A stretch of 35,514 bases of DNA from Gilvimarinus agarilyticus (GTDB taxonomy: Bacteria > Pseudomonadota > Gammaproteobacteria > Pseudomonadales > Cellvibrionaceae): positions 2,073,009 to 2,108,522 of the forward strand of contig NZ_JXCJ01000001.1 of the NCBI RefSeq assembly GCF_000832015.1, written 5' to 3'. A program made the translations under genes and the position numbers. Below, piece by piece: positions 2,936 through 7,840 of this stretch (position 1 is its first letter; the number at the start of each line of letters is the position of its first letter). The notes beneath the pieces were generated by a model. The model was not told the DNA's origin. It made no database searches and worked only from the letters and a program-made list of their open reading frames with translations.

Positions 2936-4774
2936 TTGAAAAAACTTATTCTTAGCGCGGCTATTAGCGCCGCTACTGCTGCGCCTGTCGTTGCACAAAC
3001 CGCAGAGCAGGATACCAACCAAAGCCAGGCGCTGTTGCCCACACTGGAAACCATCGTCGTGGTCAGCTCGCGCCAGCCCGAGACCATGCGTCAGGTGGCA
3101 ACGTCCGTATCGGTACTGGATGAAGCGCAAATTAAAGCCCGGGGTTTTACCGCGCTGGCCGATGTGCTGCGCAGCATGCCATCGGTGTCGGTGACTAACG
3201 CCGGCGGTATGGGCAAGGCCAGCTCGATTCGGGTACGGGGTGAATCGGGCTACCGCACCATGGTGCGTGTGGATGGGGTGGATGTGACCGACCCAACCGG
3301 CACCCAGGCCGGCGCGCAGATTCAACATATTTTGAGTGCCGATGTGGGTAAAGTAGAGCTGTTGCGCGGCCCGCAGGGCCTGATGTATGGCGCCGATGCC
3401 GGTGGTGTACTGAATATCTCCACCGAGAGCGCGAGCGACGATACCGAGGTGAAGCTGGCCGCCGAGGGCGGGAGTTTTAACAGCCAGCGTTACAACGCCA
3501 GTGTAGGCGGCACCAGCAACACATTAGATTACTTTGTGGCGGCCTCGTACGCTGAGACAGACGGCTTTAACACCAGCCTGGATGACACCGAATTAGGCGA
3601 CGACGACGGCTACGACAATACCACCTTACACGGCCGGCTAGGCTGGAACGTGACCCAGGCGCTGCGCTTAGAGGCAGTGGTGCGCGATACCGAAGCCACC
3701 AATGAATTTGACCGCTGCGGCTGGCCTTACGCGGACGATTGCGTGGGAGACTTTGATCAGACCAACACGCGGGTAAGTGCCTCTTACAATACCGAGCGCT
3801 TTCGCAACGAGCTGGCGTACTCTAATACGGATGTGGCTCGTAAAAATTATGCGTCCGGTGAAGTGTCTTACGACACAGAAGGTGAGATTGAAAAGCTCGA
3901 GTGGCTTGGTCGCGCCGAGCTGAATGAAGTGCACACCCTTGCCTATGGCCTGGAGCAGCGCGAAGATACCGTACGGGACATGAGCCGCGACCAGTGGGGC
4001 GCCTACGCCGAGTATCAAGGGCACTACGGCAAAGGCCTGTATGTAACCGCTGGCGCTCGCCATGACGATAGCGATGATTTTGGCGACTATGATACCTACC
4101 GCGTAAGCGCCGCTTACGTAGTGGAGCTGGCCGCCGGCTCATTAAAATTTAAGTCGAGCTACGGCACTGGGTTTCGCGCCCCGAGTTTGTTTGAGATCGA
4201 TTACAATCGCCAGTTGGACAACCCACAGTTAGCGCCTTTAACCCCGGAAGAAAGCGAAGGCGTAGACGCGGGCATCGAGTTCTTTGCCAATAACGGCCTG
4301 CACCTGGAGTTGGTTTACTTTGATCAAAGCATTGAGCGCGAGATTGATTGGGACTCGGGCTACGTACAAACTGCTGGCACCAGCACCTCTGAAGGTGTCG
4401 AGCTGATTGCCGATGTTCCTCTGGCTGACTGGTTGGTGGTAAACGCTAACTACACTTACACAGACGCGACCACGGCTGAAGACGCTGTACGTGCCCGCCA
4501 GCCAGAGAACATGGCCAATGTGGGCCTGACCTTCTTGCCTGGCAGTGACCTGCAAATGTCGGTTAACCTGCGCACAGCCGGCGGCACAAAAGATCGCTAC
4601 GGCGACGCCATCGATAATTACCAGGTGCTGGATGCCAGCGTACGCTACCGTATAAGTCCCGCGCTTACGTTTTACGTGCGCGGCGAAAACCTCACCGACG
4701 AAGATTACGTTGAAGTTCCGGGTTACCGCACTGCAGGCGCCTCGGGTTACGGTGGGGTAGAGGTTACTTTTTAG
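2936..4774 (+). CDS. btuB: TonB-dependent outer-membrane cobalamin receptor BtuB
   Basis: This 612-residue protein is almost the length of E. coli BtuB (614 aa). It starts with TTG at 2936, 7 nt after AGGGG. An N-terminal signal peptide (Lys-Lys, hydrophobic run, ending around VVAQ) is followed by a TonB-box-like segment (ETIVVVSS). The plug domain comes next, with recognisable SIRVRG, VDGVDV and VELLRGPQGLMYGADAGG motifs at about residues 95-165. A 22-strand-type barrel follows, containing GFRAPSLFE and a C-terminal strand ending in aromatic Phe (GGVEVTF), the usual BAM targeting signal. It moves cobalamin and other corrinoids across the outer membrane using TonB energy. The upstream cobalamin riboswitch and the downstream btuC/btuD/btuF and cob genes make the substrate assignment firm. 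Confidence 0.95.
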   Translation: MKKLILSAAISAATAAPVVAQTAEQDTNQSQALLPTLETIVVVSSRQPETMRQVATSVSVLDEAQIKARGFTALADVLRSMPSVSVTNAGGMGKASSIRVRGESGYRTMVRVDGVDVTDPTGTQAGAQIQHILSADVGKVELLRGPQGLMYGADAGGVLNISTESASDDTEVKLAAEGGSFNSQRYNASVGGTSNTLDYFVAASYAETDGFNTSLDDTELGDDDGYDNTTLHGRLGWNVTQALRLEAVVRDTEATNEFDRCGWPYADDCVGDFDQTNTRVSASYNTERFRNELAYSNTDVARKNYASGEVSYDTEGEIEKLEWLGRAELNEVHTLAYGLEQREDTVRDMSRDQWGAYAEYQGHYGKGLYVTAGARHDDSDDFGDYDTYRVSAAYVVELAAGSLKFKSSYGTGFRAPSLFEIDYNRQLDNPQLAPLTPEESEGVDAGIEFFANNGLHLELVYFDQSIEREIDWDSGYVQTAGTSTSEGVELIADVPLADWLVVNANYTYTDATTAEDAVRARQPENMANVGLTFLPGSDLQMSVNLRTAGGTKDRYGDAIDNYQVLDASVRYRISPALTFYVRGENLTDEDYVEVPGYRTAGASGYGGVEVTF

Positions 4775-4848: not shown

Positions 4849-5116
4849 TTGCTACGAAGTGTGGTTTTTAAGCCCCTGCATCCAGCCGAGCGGAGGCCTA
4901 TTTTAGGGGGTAAGCAAATAGGACATTTGCGCAAGCATCGCCACGCCATGGACGGCGTGTCGATGCGGCCCACTAAAATCGGCTGGAGTGAGGGAACCCG
5001 CAGGGCTGAGATGCTGGGGTGGCCTTTCTTTTGGTTACTTTGCTTTGGCCAAGCAAAGAAAAGTCACTCGCCACGCTCGGCGAGACGAGCTTATAAAAAA
5101 GCCCGCGTTAGCGGTA
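4849..5116 (+). repeat. Structured intergenic repeat, copy 1 (upstream of cobO)
   Basis: This is the first of two similar ~270-bp elements in the same orientation (the other is 5951-6220). Both begin TTGCTACGAAGTG and end GCGTTAGCGGTA. The 82-nt 3' block starting GGGGTGGCC (5016-5097) differs from copy 2 at only about four positions. Nested stems are visible: an outer stem TTTTAGGGGG (4901-4910) with CCCACTAAAA (4969-4978, one mismatch); hairpin A, GCAAAT-AGGAC-ATTTGC (4914-4930); hairpin B, a 12-bp stem with one mismatch (4935-4966); a near-palindrome CTTTGCTTTGGCCAAGCAAAG; and CCGC-GTTA-GCGG at the 3' end. The element ends 80 nt before the cobO start. Similar blocks around GGCCTTTCTTTTGGTTACTTT are, as I recall, dispersed in other proteobacterial genomes, but I cannot name the family. 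The stretch 4775-5196 has no convincing gene. Confidence 0.8.
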
Positions 5117-5196
5117 CCCACTTTCGCTTTTTCGTTGGCTAATTTATAGCTAATTACTGCGTCAAAAATCAATACAAAATGACTATTGGAGGCCAA

Positions 5197-5802
5197 ATGA
5201 GCAAGGATAAAGAACAGCGCCATAAAGAGGCGATGAAAAAGCAAAAGGCTAAAGTTGATGCCAATATCGCCGCCGCCGATGAAGAGCGCGGTGTGGCTAT
5301 TTTGCTTACCGGTAACGGCAAAGGTAAATCCAGCTCGGCCTTTGGTATGGTGATGCGTGCGCTGGGCTACGATCACACCGTGGGTGTGGTGCAGTTTATT
5401 AAAGGCGCGCAATTATCGGGCGAGGAGTTATTTGTTAAAAACAAATGCCCCGAGGTAACCCTCTACCAAATGGGTACAGGTTTTACCTGGAACACCCAAG
5501 ATCGCAGTGGCGATATTGCCGCCGCCGAAGAAACCTGGGCCCAGGCCGAGACCATGCTGCAAGACGAGCGGTACGATCTTGTGGTGCTGGACGAGCTGAC
5601 CTATATGATTGGCTACAAATATTTAGATGAGCAAAAAATCCTTGATGCCATTAAAAATCGTCCGCGCGAGCAAAGCGTGGTGGTAACCGGCCGTGGCGGC
5701 GGTAGCGCGCTGCAAGAGCTGGTTGATACCGTGGCCGAGATAAAAGACGTAAAACACGCGTTTCGCGCCGGCGTTAAAGCGCGTAAAGGCGTGGATTATT
5801 AA
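5197..5802 (+). CDS. cobO: Cob(I)alamin / cob(I)yrinic acid a,c-diamide adenosyltransferase (CobO/BtuR family)
   Basis: The 201-residue protein starts at the ATG at 5197, preceded by GGAGG 4 nt upstream; an ATG at 5179 in the same frame would put this ribosome site inside the gene and is rejected. A charged N-terminal tail (about residues 1-30) leads to a P-loop (GNGKGKSSS, 39-47) typical of CobA/CobO/BtuR. Further family signatures are VGVVQFIKGA, LVVLDELTYM and VVVTGRGG. The enzyme transfers the 5'-deoxyadenosyl group from ATP to Co(I) corrinoids in the cytoplasm, making the coenzyme form needed before the aminopropanol arm is attached. It stands alone between the two copies of the structured repeat, separated by about 420 bp from btuB and 500 bp from cobQ, in a block otherwise made of overlapping genes. 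Confidence 0.95.
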   Translation: MSKDKEQRHKEAMKKQKAKVDANIAAADEERGVAILLTGNGKGKSSSAFGMVMRALGYDHTVGVVQFIKGAQLSGEELFVKNKCPEVTLYQMGTGFTWNTQDRSGDIAAAEETWAQAETMLQDERYDLVVLDELTYMIGYKYLDEQKILDAIKNRPREQSVVVTGRGGGSALQELVDTVAEIKDVKHAFRAGVKARKGVDY

Positions 5803-5950
5803 CTGAGTTTTTGCTCTTGGCGAAATCTGTGAGAATTAATACGTACAATATTAATGTCGTGTCGATATGAATATTTTTCGGTGGTGATAGTGGGGCACGA
5901 ACCGAGATACAGGTGATGCTTGAAAAGGCATCAGAGGAGTTCACCTTATT

Positions 5951-6220
5951 TTGCTACGAAGTGCTGTTTTAGGTCCCCTGCGACTGAGCCGAACGTAGGC
6001 CTATTTTAGGGGGTAAGTGAGCAGGACGCTCACGCAAGTATCGTCAGGCCAGGGACAGCATGTCGATACGGCCCCCTAAAATCGGTTGGAGAGAGGGCCC
6101 CGTTAGGGCCAGACGCCGGGGTGGCCTTTCTTTTGGTTACTTTGATTTGGCCAAACAAAGAAAAGTCACTCGCCACGCTCGGCGATGCGAGCTTATAAAT
6201 AATAGTCCGCGTTAGCGGTA
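5951..6220 (+). repeat. Structured intergenic repeat, copy 2 (upstream of cobQ)
   Basis: This is the second copy of the element at 4849-5116, in the same orientation. The outer stem TTTTAGGGGG (6004-6013) and CCCCCTAAAA (6072-6081) is a perfect 10 bp here. Hairpin A is GTGAGC-AGGAC-GCTCAC (6017-6033): all of its stem has changed relative to copy 1, pairing is perfect in both, and the AGGAC loop is unchanged. Hairpin B has GTATCG (6038-6043) with CGATAC (6064-6069), a compensatory change from GCATCG/CGATGC. The conserved 3' block is 6118-6199. The copy ends 81 nt before the cobQ start, nearly the same distance as copy 1 before cobO. The 5803-5950 segment before it is AT-rich, with ATTAAT twice (5835-5840, 5850-5855) and a small GATGC/GCATC stem (5915-5932), but no gene. 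No cobalamin box is present in either copy. Confidence 0.8.
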
Positions 6221-6301: not shown

Positions 6302-7840
6302 ATGCGCGCATTCATGGTTCAAGGCACCACCTCGGACGCCGGCAAAAGTACGCTGGTGGCGGGCCTTGCACGCCTGTTACAGCGTCGCGGTATTGCGGTT
6401 GTGCCGTTTAAGCCGCAAAACATGGCCCTAAACAGCGCAGTTACTGAAGATGGCGGTGAGATCGGCCGCGCGCAGGCACTACAGGCGCAGGCCGCGGGCC
6501 TTGTGCCGCATACCGATATGAACCCGGTACTGCTTAAGCCTTCATCCGATACCGGTGCCCAGGTGATTATTCAGGGTAGGGCGCTGGGCAATATGCAGGC
6601 GCTGGATTACCACGCTTACAAAGCCACCGCCAAGGCGGCTGTGTTGGAGTCTTTTGCCCGGTTATCAGATCAGTATCAATGTGTGCTGGTCGAGGGCGCC
6701 GGCAGCCCCGCTGAAATTAATTTGCGCGAAAACGACATCGCCAATATGGGCTTTGCCGAGGCCGTCGACTGCCCGGTGATTATTATTGCCGATATCGATA
6801 AAGGCGGCGTGTTTGCGCATCTAGTGGGTACGTTAGAGCTGCTTTCGCCCAGCGAGCAAGCGTTGGTTAAAGGCTTTGTGATCAACCGTTTTCGCGGCGA
6901 TATCGCTTTGCTGCAGCCGGGCCTCGATTGGTTAGAGCAGCGCACCGGTAAACCGGTGCTGGGGGTCGTGCCGTATTTGCACGATTTATATTTAGACGCT
7001 GAAGACGCCATCAGCACTGCGCAGGTTAAAGGCGAGCAGCAACTGAATGTGGTCGTGCCGGTACTGCCGCGTATCAGCAATCACACCGATTTTGATCCGC
7101 TGCGGTTGCACCCATCGGTTAACGTACAGTTTGTTTCGGTGCGCGACGAATTGCCCCCGTGCGATTTAGTGATTCTGCCCGGCAGTAAAAACGTGCGCGC
7201 CGATTTACAACAGCTGCAGTTAAACAACTGGCAAACCAAGCTCGATAAACATCTGCGTTACGGTGGCAAGCTGCTGGGTATTTGTGGTGGCTTACAAATG
7301 CTGGGTAAGCGTATTGATGACCCTATGGGAGTCGAAGATACGGCCGGTAGCATCGATGGCTTTGGCTATTGCGATTACGCAACAGAGTTAACCGGCCAAA
7401 AGTCACTGTTAAATGTACAAGGCAATTTTAGTTTACGTGGCGCCGGTGAGACGCCGGCGCGCACCGGTTATTTTAGCGGTTATGAAATTCACTGCGGTAT
7501 TAGCCGCGGGCCGGCGTTTGGCGCGCCGGGTAATGATGTAACCCGCCATGCGCCTTTTACCATTGAATCCGACAAACTCGATGGCCAACCAAGGCCCGAA
7601 GGCGTGATGAGTGCCGACGGGCAAATTCTGGCAACTTATATCCACGGTTTATTTGATGCCCCCGAGGCGTTAAGCGCGCTACTACATTGGGCGGGGTTCG
7701 ATCGCGACGCCAACACCGAGTTTGATTTACAAGCGCACCGGGAGGCTCAGTTAAATCGGCTGGCCGATACACTCGAGCAACACCTGAGCGATGCATGGCT
7801 TAGCGAGCTTATGGCCGGTGGCGAGGCAGCGGCGCCATGA
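6302..7840 (+). CDS. cobQ: Cobyric acid synthase CobQ
   Basis: The protein is 512 residues, normal for CobQ/CbiP. An N-terminal dethiobiotin-synthetase-like ATPase domain begins with [11 protein letters not shown] (residues 7-17) and includes [21 protein letters not shown] and the DIDKGGVFA segment. The C-terminal class I glutamine amidotransferase domain has the nucleophile Cys328 (GICGG) and His448 (YIHGLFD). It amidates the b, d, e and g carboxylates of adenosylcobyrinic acid a,c-diamide using glutamine and ATP, giving cobyric acid. The ribosome site is weak at the ATG at 6302. The stop overlaps the btuC start by 4 bp, beginning the tightly coupled run of genes that continues to btuF. Confidence 0.96.

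Follow-up and report, generated by a model that had tools for sequence, protein, structure and literature searches.

The two repeats in the cob operon of Gilvimarinus agarilyticus are copies of a dispersed element of ~265 bp, which is best explained as DNA that is, or once was, mobile and that encodes an RNA bound by CsrA/RsmA (probability about 0.55). Its hairpin core is almost certainly TwoAYGGAY RNA, and its 3' half very probably forms a covarying pseudoknot with a predicted third strand.

Two Copies of the Element in the cob Operon

The window, i.e., the whole 35,514-nt stretch of DNA analysed, contains two copies of the element, which align with 227/262 identities; the duplicated ~270-bp element described in the first-pass annotation is real. 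Both copies lie in sense orientation inside the cob operon, 62 nt before the cobO frame and 81 nt before the cobQ frame. The covariance model R1, described below, matched their cores with 171.9 bits (copy 1, 4873–5021) and 145.5 bits (copy 2, 5975–6123). The parts of the element are listed below.

4852–5116, + strand: element copy 1, in the gap between the TonB receptor gene (2936–4774) and cobO (5179–5802)
4852–4859, + strand: conserved 5' end CTACGAAG of copy 1 (by-eye comparison of copies; pattern search)
4873–4885, + strand: 5' strand of the outer stem P1, copy 1; both strands covary in classes
4895–4910, + strand: 5' strand of stem P2, copy 1, the outer stem of the first-pass annotation (covariation; RNAalifold consensus)
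4914–4930, + strand: hairpin A, copy 1, loop AGGAC, GGA site 1 (covariation; GGA-loop counts)
4935–4966, + strand: hairpin B, copy 1, loop ATGGAC, GGA site 2 (covariation; GGA-loop counts)
4967–4984, + strand: 3' strand of P2, copy 1 (covariation; RNAalifold consensus)
5006–5019, + strand: 3' strand of P1, copy 1 (covariation); the Rfam family stops near here, with its model match reaching 5027
5020–5024, + strand: pseudoknot strand TGGCC, copy 1, complementary to the P5 loop (permutation test)
5025–5032, + strand: pyrimidine strand TTTCTTTT, copy 1, predicted third strand (pattern comparison with the purine arm)
5033–5067, + strand: hairpin P5, copy 1, with loop strand GGCCA at 5047–5051 and purine 3' arm CAAAGAAAAGTCAC at 5054–5067
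5069–5090, + strand: P6, copy 1, CGCC..GGCG with GCTC/GAGC (by-eye comparison across copies)
5095–5116, − strand: terminator-like hairpin and T run, copy 1 (by eye; its stem of 4 pairs is too short for the scanner)
5954–6220, + strand: element copy 2, in the gap between cobO and cobQ (6302–7840)
6017–6033, + strand: hairpin A, copy 2, loop AGGAC (covariation; GGA-loop counts)
6038–6069, + strand: hairpin B, copy 2, loop AGGGAC, upper stem with two mismatches (alignment)
6122–6126, + strand: pseudoknot strand, copy 2, with its partner in the loop from 6149 (permutation test)
6127–6134, + strand: pyrimidine strand, copy 2 (pattern comparison)
6156–6169, + strand: purine 3' arm of P5, copy 2 (alignment of the two copies)
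6171–6192, + strand: P6, copy 2 (alignment of the two copies)

Hairpin A was recovered at exactly the positions reported earlier. It has 6/6 pairs and an AGGAC loop in both copies, and the compensatory pair claimed for hairpin B is present between them. The outer stem said to enclose both hairpins is perfect in copy 2, whereas in copy 1 its 3' side reads CCCACTAAAA and leaves one G-A mismatch. These hairpins are one end of a larger element, whose less familiar half, the 3' pseudoknot domain, was overlooked in the first-pass annotation.

Upstream of the TonB receptor gene, a cobalamin riboswitch (RF00174, 52.5 bits) is located at 2674–2832, which fits the cob operon downstream.

Covariation of the Core Fold

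The RNA fold is almost certainly real. The two window copies folded with z-scores of −3.9 and −3.1 against shuffled sequences. BLAST with copy 1 returned 28 pieces in the genome, from which 24 stretches were cut; ten of these were excluded because of inserts or fragmentation, and the 14 own-genome copies with complete cores and no inserts formed alignment A1, from which R1 was built. Under a 50-pair structure, 95.0% of the cells in A1 were paired compared to 84.8% in shuffles, and 20 pairs had changed on both sides compared to 11.9. Pairing dropped to 35–44% when partners were shifted by 1–3 columns. Four of five covariation measures exceeded all 500 shuffles and the fifth (further pair types) was equalled by 58 of 500, in a test that leans in the structure's favour because the structure was taken partly from the RNAalifold consensus of A1 itself.

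The earlier suggestion that structure is under selection is supported. The pattern named at first as refuting it, i.e., extra copies in which the arms of hairpin A vary without keeping their pairing, was looked for and did not emerge: hairpin A was 97.6% paired. By eye, the outer stem P1 falls into covarying classes, in which TGCAGCCAGCC goes with GGGCTGAGATGC, TGCGACTGAGCC with GGGCCAGACGC, TGAGAGCGAGCC with GGGCCGCGAACC, and CGTAGATACAGCC with GGGCTGGATATG; in a 2014 paper (PMC4333381), this stem is described as poorly conserved in the Rfam v11 model. G-U cells on the + strand exceeded A-C cells by 22:9 in A1 and by 96:41 in a larger model-fitted set. The + strand is therefore favoured as the folded one; single-stranded DNA would give the same sign.

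The Core as TwoAYGGAY RNA

At the Rfam gathering threshold, the cobalamin riboswitch was the only match in the window. At a relaxed threshold, RF01731 (TwoAYGGAY) was detected at copy 1 with 41.2 bits (E 8.5e-5) and at copy 2 with 33.8 bits, the cut-off being 43. The search of the genome itself returned nine RF01731 matches, with six other copies at or above the cut-off (43.0–50.6 bits). As in TwoAYGGAY, the element has two hairpins with AYGGAY-like GGA loops on the same strand within a longer enclosing stem, and this stem covaries. We assign the core to this family with very high confidence.

TwoAYGGAY appears in a 2010 survey (PMC2864571), its function was unknown in 2014, when a CsrA-binding hypothesis was drawn from motif matches (PMC4333381), and two covarying pairs were added to it in Rfam 15 (PMC11701678). 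Rfam gives RF01731 the type Cis-reg and places it with CsrB in clan CL00106. The hairpin core, the printed CsrA-binding proposal and the clan shared with CsrB are thus already known. The undescribed RNA family suggested at first was rejected, because the hairpin core matches RF01731 and the CsrA link is already in print; the accompanying alternative, a folded repeat possibly bound by a protein, was judged the right reading.

Two differences separate the element from TwoAYGGAY as modelled. The Rfam model stops at P1, whereas the element continues into the pseudoknot domain; the element is also multi-copy and mobile-looking, with inserted GGA hairpins in some copies. A literature search for an 18-base element string alongside 'repeat' found no occurrence, and one with a ten-base element string found no related paper, judging by titles, among the matches listed. 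Searches linking CsrA to sponges or repeats, to MITEs, to triple helices or pseudoknots, and to repetitive elements gave no mention of the element among the matches listed.

GGA Loops and the Proposed Link to CsrA

The AGGAC loop, first described as invariant, is identical in both hairpin A loops of the window, but across the family it is better given as A(N)GGA, a motif of the CsrA/RsmA type. The loop survey covered 62 distinct aligned copies from 69 matches across 48 sources, with insert-bearing loops scored by content. GGA was present in loop A of 59 copies and in loop B of 59 copies, with stems differing widely, and it was preceded by A, or by A and one further base, in 57 A loops and 58 B loops.

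A strict count (stem of at least 4, loop of 5–7) was applied to 21 own-genome copies, three fragments being excluded. It gave 44 GGA hairpins on the + strand and 2 on the − strand, with 3.0 in shuffles; the remaining 34 kb of the window contained 3 and 6 on its two strands. Two copies had no strict hairpin, two had one (window copy 2 among them), 11 had two and six had three or four. At least two were thus present in 17 of the 21 copies, in line with CsrA/RsmA-binding RNAs, which carry more than one A(N)GGA hairpin loop per RNA. In some copies, inserted modules add further GGA hairpins (GTGCACGGATGCAC, GCGCATGGATGCGC, CTACAGGGATGTAG; by eye). One Pseudoalteromonas copy (L273, about 410–440) has an extra hairpin, GCGCCC-ATGGAC-GGGCGC, directly after P5.

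RF01731 matched 34 of 398 genomes of the phylum (27 above the cut-off). CsrA was found in all 34 and in 220 of the 398 overall, a co-occurrence possibly due to descent alone, because 33 of the 34 genomes belong to one class, that of the window. In the genome of the window, CsrA was matched once, in a frame of 63 residues that includes R44, an RNA-contacting residue. Binding of the RNA to CsrA appears reasonably probable.

CsrB/RsmZ-type sRNAs are encoded by one gene or a small number of genes, each equipped with a promoter and a terminator. The element resembles these RNAs (RF00018, RF00166) in having several GGA hairpins, all on one strand, and differs from them in that its copies number in the dozens, are dispersed and share no common promoter block. 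In 8 Gilvimarinus genomes, no match to RF00166 (PrrB_RsmZ) exceeded the cut-off; weak RF00166 matches occurred in Gilvimarinus genomes and also in 8 of 14 control genomes.

Probable Pseudoknot of the 3' Domain

In both window copies and many others, P1 is followed by a linker, a pyrimidine tract and the long hairpin P5. The linker and the P5 loop are complementary in many forms, including GTGCG/CGCAC, TGTCC/GGACA, TGAGT/ACTCA, TCGCC/GGCGA, GTGGCC/GGCCAC and CGCT/AGCG. This complementarity was assessed in 138 copies, comprising 92 of 94 from four Gilvimarinus genomes (two weak matches excluded) and 46 from other genera, the latter being 40 copies plus six of ten further loci (three without a hairpin and one with a divergent hairpin excluded). 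The parser failed on eight copies; visual inspection removed ten more that were misparsed or lacked the domain, two of which were re-entered manually; copies bearing an inserted module were excluded. The sequence-only alignment of the 3' domain left the pseudoknot strands unaligned and was kept out of the counts.

At least four Watson–Crick pairs between linker and loop were found in 40 of 59 distinct combinations (106 copies), while 3000 permutations gave a mean of 7.7 such combinations (sd 2.5, maximum 16). The pseudoknot helix was represented by 28 different strings, and 19 of the 59 combinations stayed below four pairs. A covarying pseudoknot is thus very probable for this domain.

Outside Gilvimarinus, P5 was present in 34 of the 46 copies from other genera (three by eye); 12 had no recognisable P5, one of them being cut by the contig end. 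BLAST matched 13 plasmid-collection records, and all ten among the matches listed fell in the 3' domain; no phage record matched this domain. Four records were examined. Those of Aeromonas and Pseudoalteromonas carry the 3' domain together with a TwoAYGGAY match, scoring 41.5 bits (under the cut-off) and 51.3 bits, respectively. In a Pasteurella multocida record (L274:351-401), a knotted 3' domain without GGA hairpins lies just past dapF, a gene whose reading direction points at the domain. A plasmid record of Burkholderia cepacia (L275:351-496) has a P5-like hairpin without a complementary linker, abutting the sRNA Bp1_684 (RF02421). The two domains can therefore separate.

Predicted Third Strand

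Because the geometry of an H-type pseudoknot requires it, the tract between the linker and P5 would run parallel to the 3' arm of P5. This arm is purine-rich, and the tract pattern matches it in different copies: TTTCTTTT occurs with AAAGAAAA, TCTTTT with AGAAAA, TTTCTT with AAAGAA, TTCTTTT with AAGAAAA, and TTTCTTTTT with AAAGAAAAA. Internal C and G occurred in 19 distinct patterns, eight of which matched exactly. Three of these are symmetric and five asymmetric, the latter (pyrimidine patterns 3-4, 1-4, 3-2, 2-4 and 3-5) all in parallel order, and none matched in reverse only. The other 11 patterns were not exact, in some cases as a result of the parser cutting the arm.

A broader permutation test gave 0/5000 for the parallel and 0/5000 for the antiparallel reading. 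The two readings differed in 30 of 44 combinations, with the longer run being parallel in 14 and antiparallel in 16; the longer antiparallel runs often came about via a terminal C that is here assigned to the pseudoknot strand. Since this test fails to separate the two orders, the case for a third strand rests on the five asymmetric patterns. A duplication would yield direct or inverted order rather than this mirror of the 5' arm. On these patterns, we predict that the tract forms a triple helix of U.A-U and C+.G-C triples with P5, and we regard this as likely.

Telomerase RNA and the SAM-II riboswitch are triple-helix pseudoknots. The predicted fold resembles them in being an H-type pseudoknot whose pyrimidine loop runs parallel to the purine strand of a stem. 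No homology is claimed; in the element, in contrast, there is free turnover of stems, loops and triple pattern.

Copy Number, Placement and Possible Mobility

R1 detected 22 copies in the genome of the window and 12–41 per genome across all 8 Gilvimarinus genomes examined. Such numbers also fit the main rival to the proposed explanation, namely a selfish or miniature piece of mobile DNA. The hairpins and pseudoknot would then help the element itself to be copied or inserted, in the form of RNA or of single-stranded DNA; CsrA would play no role, and the host would merely tolerate the element at gene ends. We consider this rival rather unlikely; it is compatible with a titrating RNA.

Presence and absence at the cob operon agree with the proposed explanation and with this rival alike. 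The closest relative of the window CobQ among the best 80 loci was that of G. polysaccharolyticus (83% identity), in which the TonB-cobO and cobO-cobQ gaps hold no element. A reversed copy is instead present there between later genes of the cob operon, in a gap that is empty in the window. Target duplications, which a selfish element might have left, are unreadable, the empty sites being too diverged.

Placement was characterized for 94 copies from four genomes, taken among the matches listed together with others in the same stretches; genes were defined as long open reading frames, not by annotation. The 3' end of the element faced a stop codon in 69 of 93 copies (binomial, 3e-6). Between co-directional genes, 49 copies were antisense and 17 sense of 66 (1e-4), the two of the window being among the 17. 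A further 20 of the 93 copies lay between two stops and 7 between two starts, and 49 of the 93 were antisense to both neighbouring genes. Copy pairs less than 700 nt apart in the fetched stretches were head-to-head in six cases, tandem in five and tail-to-tail in none. The stop-codon, antisense and pair-orientation biases count in favour of the selfish reading. Three tandem copies with a common 3' tail occur in one Gilvimarinus genome (L144:778-1649).

The same distribution speaks against a cis-acting element that would control the adjacent gene (here cobO and cobQ) via CsrA-dependent termination or RNA stability. The sense orientation of both window copies just upstream of the cobO and cobQ frames, and the Rfam type Cis-reg, agree with such a role; however, both sites are empty in G. 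polysaccharolyticus and sense orientation is found in just 17 of the 66 copies between co-directional genes, which makes this explanation very improbable. Least probable of all is a gene-end spacer or bidirectional terminator in which descent alone has kept the GGA loops. It accounts for the closeness to stop codons and for the terminator-like hairpin that many copies carry at their 3' end on the minus strand (by eye), but leaves unexplained the covarying stems with GGA loops on one strand and the pseudoknot.

The ends and flanks of the element bear further on mobility. Inverted ends CTACGAAGT / ACTTCGTAG were seen by eye in some copies: in L11a and L11b the CTACGAAGT end recurs inverted at the 3' end, and CACTTCGTAG, which inverts the 5' end, closes some copies. 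This favours a selfish element, but such ends are limited to some copies. A Y1 transposase, as in the REPIN/RAYT systems, was rejected as the mover, since none of the 14 Y1 loci held an R1 match within ~1.5 kb on each side (stretches of ~3 kb). In genome G081, two copies do lie 1.6 and 2.2 kb from one Y1 transposase gene, on the same side, a point in favour of the selfish reading. A search for an autonomous relative by the 5' end pattern gave 36 exact matches in four genomes, of which 29 were known copies or a fragment, by eye. The 3' domain was present in 22 of 27 genomes with several RF01731 matches and in 5 of 13 with one (by eye, with match counts as lower bounds), again as a selfish element would suggest. 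It leaves unexplained why the two loops and the inserted hairpins share an A(N)GGA consensus.

Upstream sequences were compared for the 94 copies: 48 share no similarity with another copy, and 46 form 13 groups of 2–9, some of them reflecting other repeats or the stretch between paired copies. The 94 copies thus have no upstream promoter block in common, and a scan of the two window elements found no promoter-like or terminator-like site on their + strand. Three copies (L117_5992, L120_4321 and L211_2884) have ~65 nt upstream in common, with AGAATATTAC in register, as a possible promoter block.

As described by Silby 2009 (PMC2718517), Pseudomonas REP/REPIN and MITE repeats are short, intergenic stem-loop sequences biased to gene ends. 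On that description, the element resembles them in these respects and differs in its complex conserved RNA fold and GGA loops. A REP-like palindrome, ~CACTGGATACCGGCTCAAGGCCGGTATGACG, was seen beside several copies of the genome of the window (L116, L118, L123 and L124); it represents a separate repeat family in the same gaps.

Proposed Explanation

The explanation we prefer is an element, mobile now or in the past, whose RNA product binds CsrA/RsmA. The dispersed intergenic element would encode one structured RNA of ~240 nt on the + strand. Its 5' domain (P1, P2 and hairpins A and B) would be a TwoAYGGAY RNA with loops that display CsrA/RsmA-type A(N)GGA sites in pairs, and these GGA hairpins would bind CsrA dimers, with two to four hairpins available in 17 of 21 copies by the strict count. 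The 3' domain would form an H-type pseudoknot by pairing of the linker after P1 with the P5 loop, and the pyrimidine tract would occupy the P5 major groove, forming U.A-U and C+.G-C triples. The pseudoknot may shield the 3' side of the RNA, and the many copies per genome may constitute a distributed CsrA reservoir. Transcription of the element and its transposition-like spread are both presumed in this explanation. Several results count against it: the lack of a common promoter block and of + strand promoter-like or terminator-like sites in the window elements, the 49 of 93 copies antisense to both neighbours, the 4 of 21 copies with fewer than two strict GGA hairpins, the 19 of 59 combinations short of four pseudoknot pairs, the 12 of 46 copies from other genera with no recognisable P5, and the Pasteurella and Burkholderia records in which P5 stands without GGA hairpins or a complementary linker.

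Action as a titrating RNA is proposed tentatively and graded lower than CsrA binding, since we know neither of a promoter that moves with the element nor of a transcript of it. The fullest form of the proposal is quite unlikely as it stands: a mobile element of Gammaproteobacteria whose whole cargo would be a CsrA-sequestering RNA stabilised by a triple-helix pseudoknot, with copy number setting the buffering of the regulator.

What is new here is, first, that the TwoAYGGAY-bearing element is dispersed, with GGA loops kept while stems turn over and extra GGA hairpins in some copies. It also has an uncharted 3' pseudoknot domain with a predicted triple helix, and a strong orientation bias with respect to neighbouring genes. 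The full element, with its knotted second domain, high copy number and dispersal, provides testable handles on the strand, the loop binder and CsrA tuning. If confirmed, a covarying triple-helix pseudoknot over several families would be a further natural bacterial example of this fold.
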